A stretch of DNA of 31,497 nt, from positions 1 to 31,497 of IMG/VR virus record IMGVR_UViG_3300023184_000366; one strand, written 5' to 3'. Position 1 is the stretch's first letter. The number at the start of each line of letters is the position of its first letter. A model generated the notes under the pieces. It saw only the letters and a program-made list of their open reading frames with translations. It searched no databases and was not told the DNA's origin. Both the position numbers and the translations under genes were made by a program. This document shows, one piece after another, positions 3 to 29,415 of the stretch. The DNA comes from a virus.

Positions 3-533
3 CTGACAACCAGTATTGGTCTAAAAGCACCTTTGGCTAGCCCAACTTTTACGGGTACTGTTTCAGGTATCACTAAAACTATGGTTGGTTTAGGGTCTGT
101 AGATAATACAGCCGATACTGCAAAACCTGTTTCAACTGCTCAACAGACTGCATTGGACCTGAAAGCAAATCTTGCTTCACCAACTTTTACTGGTACACCA
201 ACTCTCCCTACAGGCACCATTGCTACTACTCAAACTGCTGCGGATAGTTCTACCAAAGTTGCTACAACCGAATTTGTTACTACTGCAAACAACCTAAAGG
301 CAAACATTGCCAGCCCAACATTCACTGGAACCGTCACAATCCCTGCTGGCGCTTCAATTTCGGGTTTTGCACCACTTGCCTCACCAACATTTACGGGTAC
401 ACCAACTCTGCCAACTGACACTATCGCCACAACACAGAGCGCATCCAACAATAGTACGGCGGTTGCTACAACGGCGTTTGTCACCACGGGAATCCGTGAT
501 AGTCTACTTAAACTTTACATGGAGGTTATTTAA
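3..533 (+). CDS. Tail fibre protein, C-terminal part (5' end outside window)
   Basis: The reading frame is open from the first bases of the window, so the true start lies upstream. The protein has the low-complexity Thr/Ala/Ser/Pro composition of phage tail-fibre shafts. The motif ASPTFTG occurs four times. A 38-residue unit beginning LASPTFTGTPTLP and ending near VATT-FVTT occurs twice, encoded at about 171-284 and 375-488, with sequence changes between copies. Such repeats are known from phage fibre shafts and usually form trimeric beta-structure. The stop overlaps the next start (TAATG), which suggests translational coupling with the following structural genes. There is no recognisable receptor-binding tip domain; the chain ends in a short helical-looking tail (RDSLLKLYMEVI). 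It probably acts in host attachment at the tail or baseplate, but I cannot say whether it is a long, short or side fibre. Confidence 0.8.
   Translation: MTTSIGLKAPLASPTFTGTVSGITKTMVGLGSVDNTADTAKPVSTAQQTALDLKANLASPTFTGTPTLPTGTIATTQTAADSSTKVATTEFVTTANNLKANIASPTFTGTVTIPAGASISGFAPLASPTFTGTPTLPTDTIATTQSASNNSTAVATTAFVTTGIRDSLLKLYMEVI
171..488 (+). repeat. Two diverged copies of a 38-residue fibre-shaft repeat
   Basis: The unit at about 171-284 and the unit at about 375-488 both encode LASPTFTGTPTLPT followed by TIATTQ and VATT-FVTT. They are separated by a shorter segment that carries another ASPTFTG. Third-position differences between the copies show this is an old duplication rather than an assembly artefact. 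Confidence 0.75.
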
Positions 534-895
534 TGGCATTTACACAAAAGCGTCTTGCGGGACCAACCCAATTGACAACAACGTCTTCTACGGTGTTGTA
601 CACAACACCAATTAGCACTACGACAATTGTTAAGCAAATTGTGCTCTGTAACACCACTGCTAGTGCTGTGACAGTGACTTTGGTGCTGAAGCCACTAAAC
701 GTGGCACAGGCAACCACACAAAACTTCCTTACGGCCCTGTCATTGGCTGCTAACGAAACAGTTATGATGTCTACGTCATTGGTGCTCAACAACAGTGGAG
801 CAGCCGCAAGTGCTACCACTAGTGATCAAATTATTGGATACGCCAGCGCAAACAGTGCTGTAAACATCATCCTCACAGGTATTGAGGAGGCGTAG
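533..895 (+). CDS. Small beta-rich structural protein of the fibre cluster
   Basis: The protein has 120 residues and its ATG overlaps the preceding stop (TAATG). It is rich in Thr, Val, Ala and Ser with alternating hydrophobic positions, including strand-like segments around residues 38-52 (VKQIVLCNTTASAVT) and 72-85. This suggests a single beta-sandwich domain. There is no signal peptide or membrane segment. Its position between a fibre-shaft gene and two glycine-rich adhesin-like genes, and its coupling to both neighbours, suggest a virion component such as a fibre-tip or adaptor protein. I do not recognise a family from the sequence alone. It ends with GAGGAGG near its 3' end, which serves as the ribosome-binding site of the next gene. 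Confidence 0.6.
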   Translation: MAFTQKRLAGPTQLTTTSSTVLYTTPISTTTIVKQIVLCNTTASAVTVTLVLKPLNVAQATTQNFLTALSLAANETVMMSTSLVLNNSGAAASATTSDQIIGYASANSAVNIILTGIEEA

Positions 896-1629
896 TGGCA
901 TCTTTCGTTCGGATGAACGGAACTGGAATATCAACGGCTGAAGGAACTTCATCCATTTCCAGCGCATTGGTTGCTACCGCAACGTATCTGAACCTTCCTG
1001 ACCCTGTTTACGGAACTGGTATTGATGGTGATGCCACAATTTCGGTTAATACCACATTGACTACCGACAAGTTTTATAACAACCTAACAATAAACGACAG
1101 CATTACATTAAATTGTGGTGGTTACAGAGTGTTTGTTAAAGGAACACTGACTCTTGGATCTGGTGCAATTATTGGGTATACAACAGGTCAATCCACTGCT
1201 GGGTCCATTGCACAAGGTGGTGCAGCAACAACGGCTGTCATACATAGTCTTGGTGGTGCCAGCGCTTCACAAACTGCTACAGCACCAGTGGCTGGACTTG
1301 GTGGTTCTGCTTATTATCAACAACCATTACAAGCAATTAAGGGGTGGGCGGTCTCAGCATCAACAACGACACCTACATTCCTTCGTGGTGGTGCAGGTGG
1401 TGCATCGGGAGCAGGTGGCGGTGTAGTTATTATTGCTGCTCGTTACATTACAGTATCTTCAGGTACTGCTTATTTTAAAGCACCAGGAACTTCTGGTTCT
1501 GGTGGCGGTGGCGGTGGCGTAATCTTGATTGTGTCATCAGCATCAGTGCTTAACGCAGGCGTATCCACAGATGTCACTGGCGGAACGTCCTGCACAAGCG
1601 GAACTGTTAACTACATGCAGGTAGCCTGA
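895..1629 (+). CDS. Glycine-rich tail-tip/adhesin-like protein, short paralogue
   Basis: This 244-residue protein starts at a GTG that overlaps the previous TAG; GAGGAGG at 884-890 supports the start. Residues about 40-90 form a beta-rich domain (motifs YGTGIDGD, FYNNLT, SITL, FVKGTLTL) that aligns by eye with the same region of the next gene, so the two are paralogues. Residues about 165-215 hold glycine clusters (GGAGGASGAGGG and a run of six Gly) alternating with VVIIAARYI and VILIVSS strands. This pattern resembles phage glycine-rich receptor-binding domains, in which polyglycine helices pack side by side. It lacks the long collagen-like and His-rich insertion of its paralogue. A tail adhesin role is inferred from composition and neighbours. 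Confidence 0.65.
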   Translation: MASFVRMNGTGISTAEGTSSISSALVATATYLNLPDPVYGTGIDGDATISVNTTLTTDKFYNNLTINDSITLNCGGYRVFVKGTLTLGSGAIIGYTTGQSTAGSIAQGGAATTAVIHSLGGASASQTATAPVAGLGGSAYYQQPLQAIKGWAVSASTTTPTFLRGGAGGASGAGGGVVIIAARYITVSSGTAYFKAPGTSGSGGGGGGVILIVSSASVLNAGVSTDVTGGTSCTSGTVNYMQVA

Positions 1630-1630
1630 A

Positions 1631-2890
1631 ATGGCTGGACTAAGTAGATTTAAATCCGCACTAGTTCAAAAAACTGGAACAGACAAGGTTTTTGGCAACG
1701 GTCTGGACGGAACAGTAGTTGTCTCCACAAATACATCGTTATCTCGTGATATGTATTACGAAGCACTAACGGTAAACAGTTCCATTACTTTATTTACAAA
1801 TGGATTTAAAATCTTTGTAAAAAATACATTAACAAATAATGGCACTGTTGGTATGCCTGCTGGAACAAGCATGACAACAGGAGTGCTTGCTGGTTCGGTG
1901 ATGACACGCCTTGGCGCAAGTGATGGGTATGATGCAGCACAGTCAATTGGTACAGGTGGCTCATTGGCTATTGGCGCAGTTAAAGATTATGAAGCCCTTG
2001 TATATGGTGTCTATCAATCATCTAGCACATTAAATCGCTGGTTCGTGGGTGCACCTGGTAGTGATGGTGCTGACGGAACAGATGGTGCCGCTGGAAATGC
2101 TGGCGCTGCTGGAACTGCAAATGCTGGAGCGGCGGGTTCGGGCGGGGGTTCGGGCGCAGGTAATCCTGGAACGGCAGGAACTGGCGGTGCGGCGGGTTCG
2201 GGCGGTGCCAAAGGAACCAAGGGGACACATGGAGTAGGTGGAGGCTCCGTAGTTGTTGTTGCTAAGACCATTGTTGGTTCGGGTACTTTTGTTAGTGTTG
2301 GAACGTCTGGAACAAGTGGCAATCCTGGAGCAGGTGGCAATCCTGGTGGTAGTGGAAACGCTGGTACAGCAGGAAACGCTGGTACAAGTATTGGTGCAGC
2401 CAACCATGCAAACCCTGATGGTCACGCACACACATCTGCTCATAACCCAGGTGGTCACAACCCAGGTGGAACCGCTGGTGCCCACAACCCCGATGTAGCG
2501 GCACACCAAGCGTCACACCACACGGGAGGCAACTGTTCAGCGCATACTAAGTATGGTTGTAACGGACACCACCCTGGACACCATAACCCTGGACACCACT
2601 ACCACCACAGTGGAAGTATTTACTATCATTCACACCCTGGAAATGCACACCCTGGGAATGTTTACTATCATACCCACACGCACCCAACTCCAGCCACACA
2701 TAACCCTGCTTATCCAGGTGGAGCAGGTGGAACTGCAAATGCTGGGGGTTCGGGCAATGCTGGGGGTTCAGGAAACCCTGGTAGTGAAGGTAATCCTGGT
2801 AGTGCAGGCGCACTAATTGTGATGACTCGTAGTTTAAGCACACATGTTGCATCATCCGCTACAACACTTGTGCAAGATTTAGATAACTAA
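1631..2890 (+). CDS. Collagen-like, histidine-rich adhesin (long paralogue)
   Basis: This 419-residue protein starts one base after the preceding stop. Residues 20-70 (FGNGLDG, YYEALTVNSSITL, FVKNTL) match the N-terminal domain of the preceding gene. Collagen-type Gly-X-Y triplets follow at residues 140-163, 177-203, 224-253 and 372-393. Proline sits in the Y position in six of them (P142, P179, P232, P238, P383, P389), mostly as Gly-Asn-Pro. Residues 259-357 contain 25 histidines, two cysteines (302, 310) and repeated NPG, HPGN and YYH motifs. The last 25 residues resume an ordinary sequence (LIVMTRSLS). His pairs in phage fibres are known to bind metal ions, and Gly-X-Y tracts form collagen-like triple helices in other phages. 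Receptor binding is the likely role. The 2OG oxygenases that follow are candidate modifiers of its prolines. Confidence 0.7.
   Translation: MAGLSRFKSALVQKTGTDKVFGNGLDGTVVVSTNTSLSRDMYYEALTVNSSITLFTNGFKIFVKNTLTNNGTVGMPAGTSMTTGVLAGSVMTRLGASDGYDAAQSIGTGGSLAIGAVKDYEALVYGVYQSSSTLNRWFVGAPGSDGADGTDGAAGNAGAAGTANAGAAGSGGGSGAGNPGTAGTGGAAGSGGAKGTKGTHGVGGGSVVVVAKTIVGSGTFVSVGTSGTSGNPGAGGNPGGSGNAGTAGNAGTSIGAANHANPDGHAHTSAHNPGGHNPGGTAGAHNPDVAAHQASHHTGGNCSAHTKYGCNGHHPGHHNPGHHYHHSGSIYYHSHPGNAHPGNVYYHTHTHPTPATHNPAYPGGAGGTANAGGSGNAGGSGNPGSEGNPGSAGALIVMTRSLSTHVASSATTLVQDLDN
2048..2809 (+). repeat. Gly-X-Y and His-rich coding repeats inside the adhesin
   Basis: Nucleotide-level repetition encodes Gly-X-Y triplets (about 2048-2239, 2300-2389 and 2744-2809) around a histidine-rich block (about 2405-2701) with recurring cataaccc, cacaaccc and caccctgg words. 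Such DNA is prone to slippage and length change. Confidence 0.8.
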
Positions 2891-2899
2891 GGAATACTG

Positions 2900-2905
2900 T
2901 ATAAT
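2900..2905 (+). promoter_or_regulatory. Candidate -10 box TATAAT at the head of the accessory island
   Basis: TGTATAAT lies 10 bases after the adhesin stop and overlaps an ATG at 2904. Transcription starting about 7 bases downstream would place AGGAG (near 2940-2944) and the ATG at 2952 in a normal leader. The -35 is weak (TTTAGA at 2878, 16-base spacer). Confidence 0.4.
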
Positions 2906-2951
2906 GTCTTATCGTCGCAATGATAACCCCACCAATTCAGGAGAACTTTTT

Positions 2952-3188
2952 ATGGCTTATGGCTTTAGTACTTTAGATGCAAATGACCTAGTTGAAGCAA
3001 AGGCACGAGTCAAATATCAACTTGAGCGAGACCTTTATGATGCAGCACTTAAACTACAACAAGACCCAGCAACCTTTGACTACGAGGATCTTGTTGTTCC
3101 CGAAAACGCTGAAACGGACCCGTTGTACGCCTATAAACTAAGTCTTAAGACCATTTGGAATCAGATTAAGTGGCTGGAAACTATTTAA
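2952..3188 (+). CDS. Small helical protein of unknown function
   Basis: I chose the ATG at 2952 (78 residues) because AGGAGA lies 8 bases upstream. The in-frame ATG at 2904 would overlap a TATAAT box and has no clear ribosome-binding site, but a 94-residue product cannot be excluded. The sequence is mostly amphipathic helix (LVEAKARVKYQLERDLYDAA near residues 13-32, and a C-terminal LKTIWNQIKWLETI). There is no cysteine cluster, signal peptide or membrane segment. It is the first gene of the oxygenase/halogenase island and may be a small virion or regulatory protein. I do not recognise a family. Confidence 0.6.
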   Translation: MAYGFSTLDANDLVEAKARVKYQLERDLYDAALKLQQDPATFDYEDLVVPENAETDPLYAYKLSLKTIWNQIKWLETI

Positions 3189-3238: not shown

Positions 3239-3844
3239 ATGAAACCAATTGATTTGGGCAACTGTGTATACCTGTATGAGAATGCTTTTGCCCCAGGCAA
3301 CTTTGTAAACTTATTAGAAGAAGAGTGCAAGAACGATTGGGGATACCTATCATGGTTTAGGACACTTGTAGGTTCTGGCGATAACTTAAGGGCAGACAAC
3401 TACCGTTCTTCTTTGGGATGTGAACTGGCTCCACTGAATGTTCCCGAATCAGAAGTCTCAGTTGACCGTTTACTTCCTGTTCGTAGTGCTTGGGATAAGA
3501 TTAGGACTGACACAGATAAGGCTGTGTGGCATTACAGGAACGAACATGCACTTAACTTAGCCAAAGATGAGGGTTACCGTGTTCTTAAGTACGGACGGGG
3601 TGCGGAGTACCGTGGTCACGTTGACCATCACCCATCCAATCAGCGTGTTCTTAGTGTTATTGGGTATCTTAATGATGGCTACGCAGGTGGAGAATTAGTG
3701 TTTCCACTGTTAGATATAACAGTTAAACCGAAGGCTGGGGCAGTTTTGCTATTTCCATCTAATTTTCCTTATTACCACTATGCAAACTCTGTGGGAGATA
3801 TTTCAGACGAAATTAAGTATGCATTCGTTTCATGGTTTGTTTGA
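3239..3844 (+). CDS. 2-oxoglutarate/Fe(II) oxygenase, prolyl 4-hydroxylase-like
   Basis: This 201-residue protein has AGGAG 8 bases before its ATG. Its C-terminal half shows the double-stranded beta-helix core of prolyl 4-hydroxylase-like oxygenases. GHVDHH contains the iron ligands H127 and D129, GGELVFP is at 150-156, GAVLLFPS is at 167-174, the distal histidine is H180 (YYHYA), and K193 in EIKYAFVSWF is the probable 2-oxoglutarate anchor. The family hydroxylates proline or other side chains using O2, 2-oxoglutarate and Fe(II). Such genes are known in aquatic phages, often near tail-fibre genes. The substrate is not visible in the sequence; the collagen-like adhesin just upstream is the attractive candidate. 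The halogenase ATG follows its TGA by one base, implying coupled expression. Confidence 0.85.
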   Translation: MKPIDLGNCVYLYENAFAPGNFVNLLEEECKNDWGYLSWFRTLVGSGDNLRADNYRSSLGCELAPLNVPESEVSVDRLLPVRSAWDKIRTDTDKAVWHYRNEHALNLAKDEGYRVLKYGRGAEYRGHVDHHPSNQRVLSVIGYLNDGYAGGELVFPLLDITVKPKAGAVLLFPSNFPYYHYANSVGDISDEIKYAFVSWFV

Positions 3845-3845
3845 T

Positions 3846-5315
3846 ATGCAAAAGCACGTTTGTATTGTTGGATCAGGAACTGCTGGGTTAATTACAGCCA
3901 TAATGCTTCGTGGAATGTTTCCACTGTATAAAATAACGGTAGTATCTTCCTCTTCTATCGGAATCATTGGGGTTGGTGAAGGTTCCACCGAACATTGGAG
4001 ACAGGGATTTCAAACCCCATACAACATCAATGTTAATGAATTAGTTTCTGAATGTGCTGCTACACACAAGTATGGTATTAGGTTTGAGAATTGGACAAAC
4101 CATACGCCAGACTATTTTCATAGCGTAAGTCTCCCAGGAATGGGTCCTAATGACTTTGCAGCAAATTATGCGTTTTGTCTTGAAAACAATAGATTGCTAA
4201 CAAGTTCAATGATATCCCACCTATACAACAACAACATAGTAAAAGTCACGGGCGCAAATCAACACGATTCTGTAAACCAGTTTCACTTTGACACTAATAA
4301 ATTAAATAATTATCTTACAGTTGTTGCTAAAACAAGGGATGTTACATTTATTGATGACGAAGTTACAAATGTAAAACAAGACACAGTTTCTGGTTTTATA
4401 ACTGAGGTTGGTTTAACCAAGAATGGCTCAATCCTTGCTGATTTCTTTGTAGATGCATCAGGCTTTAGAAGGGCCTTAATGTCTCAAATTGTAAAAGAAG
4501 ATGATTTTGTAAGTTACCGAAAGTACCTTCCAACAGATTCTGCGGCGGTGTTCCAAACAGAGTCAGATCCTTCTGGTGAAATCCGACCATACACCCGTGC
4601 ACGAGCCTTGTCTAGTGGATGGGTGTTTGAAATACCTACGCAGGAAAGACGTGGAAACGGGTACATTTATGCATCTGACTTTTGCTCCGATGATCAAGCG
4701 GTCAAAGAAGTATCGGATCTTATTGGAAAAGAACTTACCCCAAGAATTATTAAATTTAAGTCTGGTTATTATAAGCAGGGCTTAAAACACAATTGTGTGG
4801 CAGTAGGACTGGCGGGTTCGTTTGTAGAACCTTTAGAAGCAACCTCTATCTCTACAACCATTCAACAAGCGAGAATGATTGGGCAATTACTTCCTACCTT
4901 TAATGAAGGAAGTAAGGCTCAAACAAAAGATTATAATAAGAAGTTTGCAGAACTAATGGACAACATTTTAGTTATGATTTCGTTGCATTACGTTTCTGAT
5001 AGAACCGATTCCGAAATGTGGAAAGCACAACAAAACGCTGAACTTCCTGAGACATTACAGAATCTTTTGGAATTGTGGAAAGAAAGAGTACCTTCTATAT
5101 TTGATTTTGCAGACACTGGGTATGGTCTATTTCATTCTGCACACTTGTGGCATGTTGCTCAAGGACAGGGAGTAATTAATCCCGAAGCGGCAACAACACA
5201 ACTCAATGCTTTTGGCTCAAGGGATTGGGCAGCAGGGGCACTGGCTAACTTTAAAAGTGAACAAGTAAAAAATGGATTGGTGGATCATGGGTCTATTTTC
5301 AAACAAAAAAAGTAA
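3846..5315 (+). CDS. Flavin-dependent halogenase (tryptophan halogenase family)
   Basis: This 489-residue protein starts at the ATG one base after the upstream stop. The frame is open 22 codons further up, but that part only overlaps the oxygenase gene. The FAD-binding GxGxxG is at VGSGTAG (9-14). GVGEGSTE follows at 42-49 and HKYGIRFENW at 74-83, where K75 aligns with the catalytic lysine of PrnA-type halogenases. DASGFRR is at 203-209, GWVFEIP at 258-264 (the family's WxWxIP motif in a variant form) and GSFVEPLEATS at 324-334. Family enzymes use FADH2, O2 and halide to make hypohalous acid that halogenates an aromatic substrate; a reductase supplies FADH2. No flavin reductase gene is seen here, so the host would provide it. 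Related halogenases occur in cyanophages. The substrate is unknown and could be a protein or a small molecule. Confidence 0.85.
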   Translation: MQKHVCIVGSGTAGLITAIMLRGMFPLYKITVVSSSSIGIIGVGEGSTEHWRQGFQTPYNINVNELVSECAATHKYGIRFENWTNHTPDYFHSVSLPGMGPNDFAANYAFCLENNRLLTSSMISHLYNNNIVKVTGANQHDSVNQFHFDTNKLNNYLTVVAKTRDVTFIDDEVTNVKQDTVSGFITEVGLTKNGSILADFFVDASGFRRALMSQIVKEDDFVSYRKYLPTDSAAVFQTESDPSGEIRPYTRARALSSGWVFEIPTQERRGNGYIYASDFCSDDQAVKEVSDLIGKELTPRIIKFKSGYYKQGLKHNCVAVGLAGSFVEPLEATSISTTIQQARMIGQLLPTFNEGSKAQTKDYNKKFAELMDNILVMISLHYVSDRTDSEMWKAQQNAELPETLQNLLELWKERVPSIFDFADTGYGLFHSAHLWHVAQGQGVINPEAATTQLNAFGSRDWAAGALANFKSEQVKNGLVDHGSIFKQKK

Positions 5316-6144
5316 CGAAAATGTTACGATTAAGGCCGACATCTGGGAAGGCTTACCAATACCAAAGAAGCATGAATTGTTGGCTATTCCTTTATCCAAC
5401 ACCTTGTGGCACCCAAAAGTAGCCCTTTACAAAAATAACAAGAAAACACCTGATTGGTTTAAAGAAGTTGCTACTGGGGAATTGGGATTGCGAAGATGTT
5501 ATGGTCTTGCAGATTATATGCGTACTGGGTATACCATTCCGTTGTGGGCACAATTAGACGTTCGGGAACCAATTTCAAAGTTAAATGCAAGTTGGGACGC
5601 TCGTTTTAATACTCCATCTTATTTGGTTGAACCACTAGACAATCAGGCGTATGAACAACTCATAAGCAAAGCAAACGTAGATCGTAATCAATTTGGGTAT
5701 GACCAAGCAGGGGAATGTCCCGTAGCAGCAATGAAGCAAAGGAAAAAGTCAGATTACCTAAAATTGCAAAACCCGTGGTTGATTAAGACAGCACCAGGTT
5801 ATTCGTCCTTATTTATAGCGCCGCAATGGGAACCCAACAGTAATTATTCTGTAATGGCTGGCGTTGTTCATACAGACTATTACCATCACTGCAACATCGT
5901 TTTGAATATTACGACAAATCAGCCCTTCTCTATTGACGAAGGAACACCAATGTTGCATGTTATTCCCTTTAAAAGAGAAAGCGCTTTAATCAAGAGTGAA
6001 TTGCTAAAGGGTGATGAATCCACCCACAAACTCCTTGACAAACTTGGGTTTGACAATATTGAACAAGGATACAACTGGAAAGGCGCTTACAAAAGAGAGC
6101 AATCCAGACACGATAAAGAATTGCGGGATATTGACAATGGATAG
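5287..6144 (+). CDS. Unknown protein of the oxygenase island, paralogue A
   Basis: The chosen ATG at 5287 (285 residues) has GGTGG just upstream. An ATG five codons earlier (5272) is possible. Both starts lie inside the end of the halogenase gene, so translation is coupled. The second half holds LFIAPQWEPNS, VVHTDYYHHCNIVLNI, and a glycine-centred turn followed by strands (EGTPMLHVIPFKRES). The same order of motifs occurs in the gene at 8248 (ASMTAPYFE, NIEFNLW, GDALCYIQFHTDRP). This suggests two diverged members of one family, probably beta-sandwich proteins, possibly related to DUF6065-type proteins. The His/Tyr/Asp-rich VHTDYYHHC could bind metal. The function is not known; co-transcription with a halogenase and oxygenases suggests a role in the same modification. 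Confidence 0.65.
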   Translation: MGLFSNKKSNENVTIKADIWEGLPIPKKHELLAIPLSNTLWHPKVALYKNNKKTPDWFKEVATGELGLRRCYGLADYMRTGYTIPLWAQLDVREPISKLNASWDARFNTPSYLVEPLDNQAYEQLISKANVDRNQFGYDQAGECPVAAMKQRKKSDYLKLQNPWLIKTAPGYSSLFIAPQWEPNSNYSVMAGVVHTDYYHHCNIVLNITTNQPFSIDEGTPMLHVIPFKRESALIKSELLKGDESTHKLLDKLGFDNIEQGYNWKGAYKREQSRHDKELRDIDNG

Positions 6145-6561: not shown

Positions 6562-7239
6562 ATGCTTAACTTCGTGGGCGGTAAGTCTCACCACATTGCT
6601 GTCATAGACGACATTATTCCAAAAGAAGTATGCGTGGGAATAATTAATGAATGCAAGTACCACTACGACAAGTTATTTTATCCAGGACCAACCATTGGTG
6701 GTGTTCAGTCACATATTAAATCGTCTATGGATTTTGACTTTGGTTTTCGTGACTTAGCCGAAAAAGGTATTCCTGCTGAACCTTTTATGAATTATGAGGA
6801 GAAGATAACACATGCGTTGTATGGAGCACTTGCTTTGTATGTTGAGCAAATCCATGAGTTAAACGCTTTATGCCCACAACTGCTAGATACTGGGTATCGT
6901 GTACAGAATTACAAGCAAAGAACTAATTATTACAGACGACATTATGATGGCGCTCCGTGGAATAGTGGGTTACTCAATCAACGAGTTTTGGGAGTTGTGA
7001 TGTATCTCAACACAATTGAAGTTGGCGGTGGAACAGGGTTTCCAGAACATGATCTTGTGATACCTGCCAAGCAAGGTTCTATTGCGATATTCCCTGCTAG
7101 TTGGACACACCCACATATGGGCATGGTGCCAATATCAGAAGAAAAATGGATTATTAGCACATTTATGTACGCTAACCGAGATGAAGATATTCCTGCCACG
7201 CCCCCACAAACCATAGATCCAACTATCATCAAATTTTAA
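6562..7239 (+). CDS. 2-oxoglutarate/Fe(II) oxygenase, prolyl 4-hydroxylase-like (second)
   Basis: This 225-residue protein is preceded by AGGAG about 6 bases before the ATG. The core motifs are RRHYDG with iron ligands H127 and D129, VMYLNTIEVGGGTGFP (146-161) matching the family's YLN...GGxTxFP, GSIAIFPASW (172-181), a distal histidine at H183 or H185 (THPHMG), and K195 in EEKWIIST as the probable 2-oxoglutarate anchor. It is only distantly similar to the oxygenase at 3239, so it was probably acquired independently or diverged long ago. The likely reaction is proline (or related side-chain) hydroxylation. The active-site set is complete, so the enzyme is probably functional. Its substrate cannot be read from sequence. 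Confidence 0.85.
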   Translation: MLNFVGGKSHHIAVIDDIIPKEVCVGIINECKYHYDKLFYPGPTIGGVQSHIKSSMDFDFGFRDLAEKGIPAEPFMNYEEKITHALYGALALYVEQIHELNALCPQLLDTGYRVQNYKQRTNYYRRHYDGAPWNSGLLNQRVLGVVMYLNTIEVGGGTGFPEHDLVIPAKQGSIAIFPASWTHPHMGMVPISEEKWIISTFMYANRDEDIPATPPQTIDPTIIKF

Positions 7240-7242
7240 AAC

Positions 7243-7701
7243 ATGATTAACACCCGAACTTGTGGAACGTGCATTAAGTGCTGTGATGGTAACTTGGATG
7301 TTGTTATCAATGAACATGTTGTTCAAAAAGGGTCACCATGCCCGCATGTGTCCGTACACACTGGGTGTACGATATATCAAGACCGACCACCCATTTGTAG
7401 GGAGTTTGAATGCGCTTGGAAAAAGGACTTGCACATTCCAGAGTGGTTAAAACCAGAACACTCTAATGTAATCATTGTATACAAAGTGTTTGAAGGAATG
7501 GATTACACGCAAGCAATTGAGACAGACAGCGTTGTGTTAAGTGCCCAAGCCCTTAATTGGTTAATAACCGATGCAATTAAATGGAAATCCAATTTGGTAT
7601 ATCAAATAGGATCAAGAGGCTTTTATTGCATGGGATCTTCTGCATTTTGTAAAGCGTGGATAAAGGAACATAACGGGGTAGGAATTGCTTATGCAGAGTA
7701 A
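7243..7701 (+). CDS. YkgJ-like cysteine-cluster (zinc/iron-chelating) protein
   Basis: This 152-residue protein starts three bases after the oxygenase stop. Eight cysteines lie in the first 57 residues: CGTCIKCC (7-14), PCPH (32-35), GCTIY (41-45) and RPPICREFEC (48-57). The pattern CxxCxxCC...C...GC.IY..RP..CR.F.C matches the YkgJ family of predicted zinc- or iron-chelating proteins. The remaining 90 residues are ordinary and hold three further scattered cysteines near 129-136. YkgJ-type proteins have no well-proven activity. In this setting, between two Fe(II)-dependent oxygenase-type genes, a role in metal handling or in binding the same substrate is reasonable but inferred. The next gene begins inside its 3' end. 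Confidence 0.75.
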   Translation: MINTRTCGTCIKCCDGNLDVVINEHVVQKGSPCPHVSVHTGCTIYQDRPPICREFECAWKKDLHIPEWLKPEHSNVIIVYKVFEGMDYTQAIETDSVVLSAQALNWLITDAIKWKSNLVYQIGSRGFYCMGSSAFCKAWIKEHNGVGIAYAE

Positions 7702-8248
7702 ACTTGTCAGCCAATTCTTGTCACCCATAGAGTGCACAGAGATAAGAGAATCAATTGAATCAGAAGCATGGGGTGGCGATGACTGGGGTAGGAAATCATG
7801 CGATCTACCTAACAACTTAAAAATAGAAGAAGAAATGAAAAGGCAGTATGGGGAAGACTTAGTGTTCACTTATGCAAAATGGGTCAGGTATTCCACGCTG
7901 TACGGATCTCCAAAGGTTCCCCCTCACGTAGACATGCGCCCTTGTACCTATACTTTTGATATTCAATTACGCTCTACAGTTAACTGGCCCTTAGTTGTAA
8001 ATGGTGTTGAGTATTTGATGGGAAATGGCGATGCCGTGTTATATGGTGGAGAAGATCAACTTCACTGGAGACCGCCGTACCCCACAAAAGACCCGATGAA
8101 GTTTGTTGAAGTTGCTTTTTACCACTATGTAAAACCAAACCATTGGTCACTCACTGGTAGCATGACCCCAAGCGATAGCGATACATTGGCTAAACAAAAA
8201 ACAAAGAAGTTGCTAGATGAATACGAGAAAAAGATTAAGGGCGCTTAA
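7691..8248 (+). CDS. Cupin/double-stranded beta-helix protein, likely 2OG oxygenase-like
   Basis: The ATG at 7691 (185 residues) has GGGGTAGG upstream and is preferred over a TTG two codons earlier. PPHVDMRP supplies an HxD pair (H79, D81). It is followed by strand-like TYTFDIQLRS, WPLVVNG, a glycine turn (GNGDAVLYGGED), H125 (QLHWRPPYP) and VEVAFYHYV. This order (HxD, about 45 residues, His) is that of 2OG-Fe(II) oxygenases of the phage/eukaryote type with a compact core. The usual arginine or lysine co-substrate anchor is not obvious; K137 or H145 might serve. It may be an active third oxygenase or a metal-binding homologue. It overlaps both neighbours and ends in a lysine-rich helical tail. 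Confidence 0.7.
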   Translation: MQSKLVSQFLSPIECTEIRESIESEAWGGDDWGRKSCDLPNNLKIEEEMKRQYGEDLVFTYAKWVRYSTLYGSPKVPPHVDMRPCTYTFDIQLRSTVNWPLVVNGVEYLMGNGDAVLYGGEDQLHWRPPYPTKDPMKFVEVAFYHYVKPNHWSLTGSMTPSDSDTLAKQKTKKLLDEYEKKIKGA

Positions 8249-23605: not shown

Positions 23606-24709
23606 ATGATTCCAGGAATCGTAGAATCCTCAAGGTGGGTCGCTTCTTTTAGCGATACTTTTAATCGTGCTGATGCTGCAAACATCAATACGAATAACCT
23701 TGAATGGCAAGAGATTATTGGTGACTGGCAAATCTCTTCAAATACGGCATACTCCCCTACGGCTGCTTCCTCTTATCCCCTAGCAGCCATTAACACCTTT
23801 AAAGAAAACACTTCTGTTATTTCATATAATGGCAGTGCAGGTGCTGGCTTTGGTGTTGCTTTTTGGGTAGTTGATTCAAACAATTGGTGGGCAGTAGTTA
23901 GTAACACCACTACAAGTACTTCAACTGGCACAGTTTATTCTTGCCCTAATGGTGGCACACTTTCAGGAACAACCTGTCTTAACACTTGCTACAGCACTTG
24001 CTATGACACTTGCTATGAACAGTGCTGCTCAGGTGGTTCGTGCCCAGGTGGCTTGTCAGGATCATGCGGTGGTGGCGGTTACGCTTTTGGGTGTTATCAA
24101 CCAGGAGGCTGTGGTTGCCCGCCAGGGACCGCAGGAGACGTGTCCACCTGTACATGTTATAGCGATTACCAAGGTGGACCAAGTACCCTTTGCATTGGTA
24201 GCACGTGTGGTTATGGATGTTGGTACAACTGGCCTTTTGCTACGTCTTATGCATTTGCAGGAGGCTGTTATGGTTCCGCCACTAGTGGTGTTGTAGCCGC
24301 AGGTTGGGTGGCGGGAACAGTCACATCCACAAGTAATTGTAACCCTTACTCTTGTAACCCTTACTCTTGTAACCCATACGCATGTAACTCCGCTGCAACT
24401 GCAACAAACAACACCATTACAACGTATGCGCATACTCTAACGTTACTTAGAAAATTAGCAGGAACTGTTTCAGTAGTAGAAACGCAGACGCATGGAGCAG
24501 ACCAAACTACTCCTATCTACTTCACTTCCCTGTCAGTATCCACTGTAGGTAACGTCATTAGTTATTCAGGTTTGCGCAATGGTTCTACAAATGCTTATAC
24601 TGCTACAGCCGTATCTCCTACTAAGGGAACAAAACACGGTATCATAATGGCACCAGTAACGGCGGGTACGCAAGCAAATAGAGTAGACCGATTTGACTAC
24701 AACGGATAG
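23606..24709 (+). CDS. LamG-like protein with a cysteine-rich insertion
   Basis: This 367-residue protein starts four bases after the fibre-like gene. Residues 14-98 (FSDTFNRADAANI, EWQEIIGDWQIS, GAGFGVAFWVVDSNNWWAV) match the start of a concanavalin/LamG-type beta-sandwich. The family's second half appears at about 270-365 (HTLTLLRKLAG, FTSLSVSTVGNVISYSG, GIIMAPVTAG). Between them lies an insertion, residues 113-260, with 22 cysteines and none elsewhere. They are spaced every four residues at 124-140 (CLNTCYSTCYDTCYEQC), then in CGGGG, GCGC and CTCY clusters, and every five in a CNPYS repeat at 245-260. It may bind sugars or form a disulphide- or metal-stabilised surface loop. A virion surface role is inferred from position. 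Confidence 0.65.
   Translation: MIPGIVESSRWVASFSDTFNRADAANINTNNLEWQEIIGDWQISSNTAYSPTAASSYPLAAINTFKENTSVISYNGSAGAGFGVAFWVVDSNNWWAVVSNTTTSTSTGTVYSCPNGGTLSGTTCLNTCYSTCYDTCYEQCCSGGSCPGGLSGSCGGGGYAFGCYQPGGCGCPPGTAGDVSTCTCYSDYQGGPSTLCIGSTCGYGCWYNWPFATSYAFAGGCYGSATSGVVAAGWVAGTVTSTSNCNPYSCNPYSCNPYACNSAATATNNTITTYAHTLTLLRKLAGTVSVVETQTHGADQTTPIYFTSLSVSTVGNVISYSGLRNGSTNAYTATAVSPTKGTKHGIIMAPVTAGTQANRVDRFDYNG
24338..24391 (+). repeat. Three tandem 15-bp repeats in the cysteine-rich loop
   Basis: TGTAACCCTTACTCT occurs twice in tandem (24338-24352 and 24353-24367), followed by a diverged copy TGTAACCCATACGCA and then TGTAACTCC. They encode the C-N-P-Y-S units of the LamG-like protein and suggest expansion by slippage. 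Confidence 0.8.
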
Positions 24710-27837: not shown

Positions 27838-29415
27838 ATGGCATATGATCGTCCAGGAGTCTACGTAAGAGAGACTCCATTTACCAGTAATCTTGCTAGC
27901 CGTACCGCTACGTCTGTTGCCGCTTTTGTAGGTGAAGCAGAACGTGGTCCCGAAGTAGCAACTCTAATTAGTTCGTGGAATGATTACAAATCTAACTACG
28001 GAGAAATCTCCAACACATACGATTTGGGCTACGCCGTCTATCATTACTTTGCTAATGGTGGTCGTGATGCTTACGTATCACGAGTAATTGATACCACTGC
28101 TCTTGCTTCCACAACCACCTTTCAGGGAACCATTACAGGTGCATCAGCAGCAAGCACACTGTTTACTTTGAAAGCCGCTTCTAAAGGCGCATGGGGTGAC
28201 CAACTTTCAGCGGTTATTACGTTTGATCCAAGCACTCTGACGGATCCAACAGGAACACCAAAGGTCAACTCAACAAGCCTGTTCTCATTGGCAGTTAACT
28301 TGGTAAGATCAGGTACGACTGTAGAAGTTGAGCGTTGGCAAGAATTGTCTTTTGACGCTACCTCTAGCCGTTACTTCAAGAGTGTTCTTGATTTGTACTC
28401 AGCATACTTTAAAGTTTCAGGAACACCAGCCACAATCTCAAGCAACGTCACAATTGCTGTAAGTGGTATCACATCAAGTGTTTACAGCAAGACACTTACT
28501 CTTTCAGGAGGTTCAGATGCCGTTAATGCAAGTGCTATCACTGCTGACACTGAGTGGGCAACTGCTGTAAATAACTTAGACATGGTTGCTGGTCCGTTGT
28601 TAATTAACCTTGTTGGACAAACATCCAGCACACGTGTTAACCAAGCCCTTGCATATGCAGCAAACCGTGCCGATTCATTTGTTATCATTGACAGCCCACT
28701 GTCAGCAGCAACAAAAGCAGATATGCAAACTGCAATAGCGGGCTACAGCACCACCAATGGTGCTTTTGGTGCAGTGTACTTCCCAGCATTAAAAATGTAT
28801 GACCCAGCAAAGAGCGGTCCAACGGCTATCCGTGACACCTACGTAGGTGGTGCAATTGCTGGAGCGTATGTACGTTCTGAGACTCTTCGTGGTGTTGCTA
28901 AAGCCCCAGCAGGTTATTTCTTGGATCTACAAAATGTGTTTGGTCTTGCAGCAACGCTTTCTGATGCAGATCAGGGAACTTTGTACAACACTAACCATGT
29001 AAACTGTTTGCGTCTAATCCCAGGAGGCGGAACCATTATCAATGGTGCTCGCACCTTGGCAAAGAACCGCCCAGAAAAGTACATTCCAATCCGTCGCACC
29101 CTTTCGTACTTGCGAGTAATGTTAGATGCACAAACACAATTTGCGGTCTTTGAACCAAACGACGAGCGTTTGTGGGATCGCCTTAACGTATCTATTTCCA
29201 GTGTTCTTACAGACTTCTGGGCTAAAGGTAATTTAAAAGGTGTTAATGCAACTAGCGCCTTCTACATTGTTTGTGATTCGTCAAATAACACGTCATCAAG
29301 TATTCAAGATGGATATGTAAACATTGAGGTTGGTGTCGCATTGCAATACCCAGCCGAATTCATTGTAATCAACCTTACCCAGTCGGCTGGCAGCGGCTTC
29401 GCTGGAAACCTCTAA
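27838..29415 (+). CDS. Tail sheath protein
   Basis: This 525-residue protein has TTTAGGAG before the ATG. It starts DRPGVYVRETPF, the typical sheath N-terminus. AFVGEAERGP and WNDYKSNYG follow, then the sheath core NHVNCLRLIPGGGTIINGARTL, YIPIRRTLSYLRVM, FEPNDERLWDRL and the C-terminal strand INIEVGVALQYPAEFIVI-like segment. Sheath subunits form the contractile outer tube; contraction drives the inner tube through the envelope. The middle 150 residues (TGASAASTLFTL, TISSNVTIAVSG) are a variable surface domain. The call fixes the phage as a myovirus-type particle. Codon use is clean and the gene is intact. Confidence 0.95.
   Translation: MAYDRPGVYVRETPFTSNLASRTATSVAAFVGEAERGPEVATLISSWNDYKSNYGEISNTYDLGYAVYHYFANGGRDAYVSRVIDTTALASTTTFQGTITGASAASTLFTLKAASKGAWGDQLSAVITFDPSTLTDPTGTPKVNSTSLFSLAVNLVRSGTTVEVERWQELSFDATSSRYFKSVLDLYSAYFKVSGTPATISSNVTIAVSGITSSVYSKTLTLSGGSDAVNASAITADTEWATAVNNLDMVAGPLLINLVGQTSSTRVNQALAYAANRADSFVIIDSPLSAATKADMQTAIAGYSTTNGAFGAVYFPALKMYDPAKSGPTAIRDTYVGGAIAGAYVRSETLRGVAKAPAGYFLDLQNVFGLAATLSDADQGTLYNTNHVNCLRLIPGGGTIINGARTLAKNRPEKYIPIRRTLSYLRVMLDAQTQFAVFEPNDERLWDRLNVSISSVLTDFWAKGNLKGVNATSAFYIVCDSSNNTSSSIQDGYVNIEVGVALQYPAEFIVINLTQSAGSGFAGNL

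Follow-up and report, generated by a model that had tools for sequence, protein, structure and literature searches.

The crystal structure of gp38 from phage S16 is described as a beta-helix with short and long glycine extensions that form a polyglycine-II sandwich, and the variable loops of gp38 were suggested to be its receptor-binding parts (PMC6851490, PMC12892980). A defining feature of gp38 is an N-terminal attachment domain in which three Trp residues are conserved (PMC6851490). HxH iron-binding tail fibers provide a known precedent for metal binding by a fiber (PMC11705849). Genes for 2OG-Fe(II) oxygenases and tryptophan halogenases occur widely in aquatic phages, where they are generally classed as auxiliary metabolic genes without a known purpose. 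Literature searches for His-rich collagen-like fibers and for prolyl hydroxylation of phage tail fibers returned nothing relevant.

We analyzed a 31.5-kb stretch of DNA, here called the window, from IMG/VR record IMGVR_UViG_3300023184_000366, which derives from an uncultured aquatic phage. The phage is contractile-tailed, with a sheath gene at 27838–29415, and the 46% identity of its terminase to those of Streptomyces myophages suggests an actinobacterial host. The window encodes a His- and glycine-rich protein, which is probably a receptor-binding adhesin composed of a beta-helix core, polyglycine rods, and a variable loop and carried in an enzyme module (Table 1). A 367-aa ORF elsewhere in the window (23606–24709, + strand), whose middle part is rich in Cys, Tyr, and Gly (CYSTCYDTCYEQCC..., CNPYSCNPYSCNPYACNS) and which matched nothing in PHROG, is perhaps a second unusual surface protein.

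Table 1. Positions in the window of the adhesin gene, its segments, and the adjoining genes
Feature	Position	Strand	Residues, basis, or remarks
Tail-fiber protein, C-terminal part, truncated by contig start	33..533	+	PHROG tail-fiber families, phrog_4209 (E 9e-12) and others
120-aa protein, phrog_20100	533..895	+	Precedes the two glycine-rich genes in freshwater-type loci
Glycine-rich paralog, 244 aa, no His insert, same predicted beta-helix core as adhesin	895..1629	+	Profile comparison and AF2
Putative adhesin, His- and glycine-rich, 419 aa	1631..2890	+	ORF and composition
Predicted beta-helix core, most conserved part (FGNGLDG...LSRDMYY...LFTNGFKIFV)	1679..1870	+	Residues 17–80
Glycine block 1 (triplet runs 1 and 2)	2048..2242	+	Residues 140–204
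Conserved strands GSVVVVAKTIVGSGTFVSV between glycine blocks	2243..2299	+	Residues 205–223
Glycine block 2 (triplet run 3)	2300..2398	+	Residues 224–256
Hypervariable His/Gly/Pro/Asn-rich insert	2399..2701	+	Residues 257–357; dN/dS 0.59, pLDDT <50
Insert center, C-x7-C-x2-HHPGHHNPGHHYHH	2534..2608	+	Residues 302–326; recurrent in freshwater relatives
Anchor NPAYPGG and glycine block 3 (triplet run 4)	2702..2809	+	Residues 358–393
Last beta-strand and C-terminus	2810..2887	+	Residues 394–419
94-aa ORF, function unknown	2904..3188	+	Retained at this place, ahead of the oxygenase gene, in several freshwater loci
2OG-Fe(II) oxygenase 1, prolyl-4-hydroxylase-like by sequence	3239..3844	+	PF13640, E 2.5e-12
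Flavin-dependent tryptophan-type halogenase	3846..5315	+	PF04820, E 4.8e-98
phrog_7084 protein, function unknown	5287..6144	+	PHROG; kept in module
2OG-Fe(II) oxygenase 2	6562..7239	+	PF13640; HxD...H...K in 20/20
phrog_2954 protein	7688..8248	+	PHROG; kept in part of modules

Sequence anatomy and relatives of the adhesin gene

A preliminary description of the window had reported a 419-residue protein with four Gly-X-Y runs of about 7–10 triplets, a dense His segment between the last two runs, and NPG, HPGN, and YYH repeats. All of these features were recovered. The runs span residues 140–163 (8 triplets), 177–206 (10), 224–253 (10), and 372–395 (8), and they exceeded those in shuffles of the same glycine-rich blocks (P = 0.0017, <0.0001, and 0.0008); their triplets are rich in Ala, Thr, Asn, and Ser and never have Pro at the X position. 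Of the 27 His residues in the protein, 25 fall within the 99 residues 259–357, between runs 3 and 4, and this segment is followed by the short conserved anchor HNPAYPGG and then the last run. For comparison, His makes up 2.2% of the 6013 residues in the other proteins of the phage (binomial P = 1.5e-19 for the insert), and at most 11 His residues occur in any other 100-residue stretch when all frames of the window are considered. The NPG, HPGN, and YYH repeats are all present. The His codons of the segment are mixed (18 CAC and 7 CAT), as are those for Gly and Pro, so this part of the gene is neither a simple repeat at the DNA level nor a microsatellite.

The family profile related 79 IMG/VR loci to the adhesin, from which approximately 55 distinct insert-bearing homologs were read, all from uncultured phages and each with an insert rich in His or Tyr at the corresponding position. 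The order of core, glycine block 1, strands, glycine block 2, insert, anchor, glycine block 3, and last strand is family-wide, and this architecture is unchanged in relatives down to ~30% identity. The consensus is FGNGxDGxVxISTNxxLSRDMYYxxLTVNxxxTLFTNGFxxFV for the core, GGxVxVxAKTIxGxGTFVS for the strands between glycine blocks 1 and 2, and HNPxYPGG or a variant for the anchor. A Pfam scan of the adhesin found no family at E 0.1, and tblastn with the window adhesin and two divergent relatives found no match in cultured phages at E 1e-3; the N-terminal domain alone gave nothing better than E 0.3 there. One bacterial genome contig, L094, carries only a relative that is glycine-rich and His-poor. 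The earlier statement that no known family joins such a His segment to triplets agrees with these searches, and the adhesin family is a real and undescribed one, probably of the glycine-rich beta-helix kind, with a hypervariable loop in which His is selectively retained.

Relatives were sorted into "freshwater" and "marine" types, labels for sequence clades that were taken from knowledge of similar sequences and not from sample records. Freshwater-type inserts contain 11–26% His, and marine-type inserts contain 5–7% His and 14–18% Tyr; one long insert, in L077, has no His and is rich in Tyr, Asn, Pro, and Thr. Charged and aliphatic residues are few in most inserts. A heptad, [H/Y]-P-G-N-x-[F/Y]-S, is repeated in both types, and thus His and Tyr can occupy the same place. 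Insert length reaches ~790 residues among the relatives, the largest of which (L053 and L063 5971–9195) have 1074 residues with ~103 His; the 61-kb L063 contig also contains ten PF13640 matches. In L058, L064–L076, and L083–L087, long NNYSYPGN, GYSYGYSY, and TNYGSNP repeats flank an invariant alternating-His tip, HTHYHWH...YHYHY(A/N)HxH, and the order of the adhesin and paralog genes is reversed relative to the window.

The neighboring genes and the insert support the identification of the protein as an adhesin, as the preliminary description had proposed. The tail-fiber gene upstream, which is cut by the contig start in the window, is full-length in L001 (3275–4903), and PHROG gave weak tail-fiber matches for the adhesin itself. 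The tandem paralog matched the adhesin family by profile comparison with a probability of 99.9 and E 1.7e-35, and the insert is hypervariable, as described below.

Evolution and predicted structure of the insert and glycine blocks

Comparison of the window with L001 determined a dN/dS of 0.59 for the insert and 0.08–0.10 for the core, glycine block 1, and C-terminus, so that the insert changes about 7 times faster than the rest of the adhesin (0.59 versus ~0.08). Fast evolution of a segment between a slow core and C-terminus is as found in the receptor-binding loops of gp38 (PMC6851490, PMC12892980). In ten further freshwater-type pairs, His was the best-kept common insert residue (0.88), followed by Gly, Pro, and Asn (0.80–0.82), with Ala, Ser, and Thr at 0.57–0.68; in marine-type pairs, His was kept at 0.97. 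In the window–L001 pair, Asn (0.97) and Pro (0.93) stood above His (0.88). The preliminary description had named disorder together with poor conservation as evidence that would count against it; disorder is indeed predicted for the insert, but its His residues are not poorly conserved.

AF2 modeling of the adhesin with 39 sequences predicted a small helix-like beta core and ordered, non-regular glycine blocks. The pLDDT was 75–93 for core residues 20–80, ~53–87 for the glycine blocks, and up to 85 for the last strand, and it fell below 50 in the insert, which is thus predicted to be disordered in isolation. The paralog was modeled with a pLDDT of 86 and a pTM of 0.81, and its strands resemble small beta-helices. 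Foldseek and VIA searches with both models gave no significant match; beta-helix proteins appeared weakly (Z <8), and gp38 was not listed. A PDB profile search with the adhesin returned one match, of composition type (E 0.82). A monomeric beta-helix with polyglycine-II, as in gp38, would account for the predicted layout no less well than a triple helix.

The collagen triplets of the preliminary description are real as a pattern, whereas their reading as collagen is not favored. Were they a true collagen triple helix, the protein would form a trimeric collagen-like fiber tip in which the His segment served as a spacer. Its runs of 8–10 exact triplets are longer than chance, and the top structural matches are viral collagen-like proteins; however, these matches, collagen-like giant-virus proteins found by Foldseek among viral models, reached a TM of only ~0.2–0.27 and were judged to be driven by composition. 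Moreover, the adhesin has no match to Pfam collagen (PF01391), and its triplets, of the composition given above and without Pro at X, form short runs that are broken by predicted beta-strands, making a triple helix unlikely. Even less probable is that the insert is low-complexity filler that arose by repeat slippage and is under no constraint. Its variable length, its visible repeats, and its low pLDDT would agree with such an origin, but the dN/dS of 0.59 is still below 1, the codons are mixed, few charged or aliphatic residues are found throughout, and within the same segments the retention of His, Asn, Pro, and Gly far exceeds that of Ala, Ser, and Thr. The retention of His could instead reflect a metal-binding tip, where several ions of Zn, Ni, Cu, or Fe would be coordinated by His and by the central Cys pair; the bound metal would either give the loop order or engage receptors for metal uptake, in line with what was proposed for HxH iron-binding fibers. 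A C-x7-C-x2-HHPGHH-type center recurs in one freshwater-type insert clade, and the alternating-His tip surrounds a variable loop in 19/19 of the marine-type relatives that have a tip. Given these two recurrent patterns, a metal site at the insert center is plausible. Nevertheless, HxH spacing was not above chance either in the window insert (5 observed versus 5.75 expected) or in the family (z −0.6); the enriched His spacings were 5 and 7, which are the repeat periods. Furthermore, L077 keeps its long insert without His, and in marine relatives Tyr stands where the repeats otherwise have His. A metal-binding tip is a possible account of the insert as a whole but less likely than not.

The enzyme module and its link to the adhesin

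The enzyme genes of the module lie downstream of the adhesin gene, beyond positions 1631–2890, to which the preliminary description was confined. Their active-site motifs are intact. The nearest solved structures to oxygenase 1 are bacterial prolyl 4-hydroxylases, with modest sequence similarity (E 8e-7), and its iron triad and basic 2OG residue (H127, D129, H180, and K193) are present in nearly all of 62 distinct homologs. For the halogenase, the nearest structure is 6nsd, and viral VirX1 also matched; GxGxxG and the catalytic Lys occur in 32/32 sequences, and EPLE and I-P occur in 28/32, the other 4 being gapped there. In the window copy, the WxWxIP motif appears as W-x-F-x-IP, and the catalytic Lys and Glu are present. 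The dN/dS of the module enzymes between the window and L001 was 0.05–0.06. HxD-like motifs are also contained in the phrog_7084 and phrog_2954 proteins, the latter labeled "ferrochelatase" in PHROG, and both may be further oxygenases. A Cys-rich protein (TCGTCIKCCDG...; 7243–7701, + strand), which lies within the enzyme cluster and is kept in several modules, may partner the oxygenases as a metal or iron-sulfur protein. In Synechococcus phage S-H38, a 296-aa very glycine-rich protein is encoded in the tail-fiber cluster (L095 1542–2432), ~4.5 kb before a halogenase gene.

An oxygenase was found downstream of the insert-bearing adhesin in 42/42 distinct cases with at least 4.5 kb of downstream sequence, versus 0/6 usable insert-free homologs; one row that appeared to be insert-free with an oxygenase was a mis-started paralog and was not counted. 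PF13640 was found in 0/9 control contigs. The halogenase accompanies the freshwater-type and intermediate clades, and none was found near marine-type adhesins. As for the phage backbones, the terminases of L029 and L010 are 81% and 79% identical to that of the window. The L003 module is 66–88% identical, gene by gene, to that of L029, but their terminases are not shared: the 68-kb L003 contig, which is possibly a chimera, has an unrelated terminase and no sheath match. Likewise, L021 carries a module close to that of the window together with an unrelated terminase. Thus, barring assembly chimeras, the adhesin and the enzymes appear to be exchanged as a unit between unrelated phages.

This linkage raises the possibility, less likely than not, that the module enzymes modify the adhesin and that the whole is a self-contained, horizontally exchanged receptor-binding unit with its own chemistry. 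Oxygenase 1 would hydroxylate Pro (or Asn/His) in the triplets and the insert, while aromatic residues of the adhesin may be targets of the halogenase; the phage would thereby chemically diversify or stiffen its own receptor-binding protein, which is compatible with a tail-tip adhesin. The 42/42 versus 0/6 distribution, the nine control contigs, the occurrence of the module as a unit on unrelated backbones, the likeness of oxygenase 1 to prolyl 4-hydroxylases, and the low dN/dS of the enzymes all favor such a modification. Additionally, triplet Pro in insert-bearing adhesins sits at Y, the collagen hydroxylation site (105 Y versus 5 X), whereas oxygenase-free homologs lack this bias (6 Y versus 5 X). 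The Y-position Pro was first read as a hydroxylation signature; however, S16 gp38, which has no such enzyme adjoining, shows it as well (GNPG), and therefore the bias may only reflect polyglycine-II packing. Nor does the oxygenase link represent many independent events, since the tree indicated that the insert arose once (2 Fitch changes), and thus the co-occurrence of insert and oxygenase by itself amounts to one evolutionary event. Furthermore, L054 has no oxygenase within the 1.5 kb available downstream of its adhesin, and oxygenases and halogenases of these kinds occur in cultured cyanophages and pelagiphages that lack this adhesin.

Comparison with described systems

In the reading that we prefer, the adhesin would be located at or near the tail-fiber tip and bind the receptor. 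Its small beta-helix core would bear glycine blocks stacked as polyglycine-II-type rods that hold out the hypervariable loop, and rods and loop may have the roles that the polyglycine sandwich and the variable loops have in T-even gp38. The loop would have grown in this family to ~100 residues, and much further in some relatives, from short His/Gly/Pro/Asn repeats, with His (Tyr in marine relatives) supplying selected side chains for contact with the host surface and possibly for metal binding at the loop center. The adhesin is inherited as one module with its paralog, the prolyl-4-hydroxylase-like oxygenase, the flavin-dependent halogenase, and the second oxygenase; this module may, alternatively, serve a different stage of infection. 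Such a family would matter because a loop of the receptor-binding type changes fast while its His residues are kept, in a protein without a Pfam model or a cultured-phage match.

The T-even gp38 proteins (S16, T2, and PP01) share with the adhesin its predicted order of parts, in which strands are followed by a glycine block, further strands, a larger glycine block that holds the variable segments, and a last strand. GNPG motifs mark the glycine region in both, the S16 region using the same GNPG/GAPG motifs as the adhesin, and hypervariable segments lie between the glycine motifs. Unlike gp38, however, the adhesin lacks the N-terminal Trp attachment helices, with no Trp in residues 1–136 and its only Trp at 137, and shows no sequence similarity to S16 gp38 (hhalign probability of 0.1–0.2%; BLASTP of the paralog against gp38, E 0.48). 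Therefore, the adhesin may be said to work like gp38 but not to be a gp38. Its variable segment is also His-rich and ~100 residues long, whereas gp38 has short loops, and it comes with a tandem paralog and an enzyme module. With collagen-like phage and giant-virus proteins, the adhesin has in common Gly-X-Y runs of 8–10 triplets, but its runs are short and interrupted, have Pro only at Y, match no PF01391 model, and accompany a predicted beta-helix core. The T4 gp37 tip and HxH iron-binding fibers resemble it in having a His-rich part that is distal, as the adhesin would presumably be, and the marine relatives have alternating His strands; in the adhesin, however, HxH spacing is not enriched and the His residues form a loop between glycine blocks.

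The module enzymes belong to the same families as the 2OG-Fe(II) oxygenases and tryptophan halogenases of cyanophages and pelagiphages, which often occur in the same genomes. Those enzymes are usually read as products of auxiliary metabolic genes and are not tied to one structural gene, whereas the module enzymes are fixed downstream of the adhesin and occur with it on different backbones. Being fixed to one adhesin family in unrelated phages, they offer a testable case for action on a structural protein; if true, modification of the adhesin would explain why oxygenases and halogenases lie beside tail genes in these aquatic phages.
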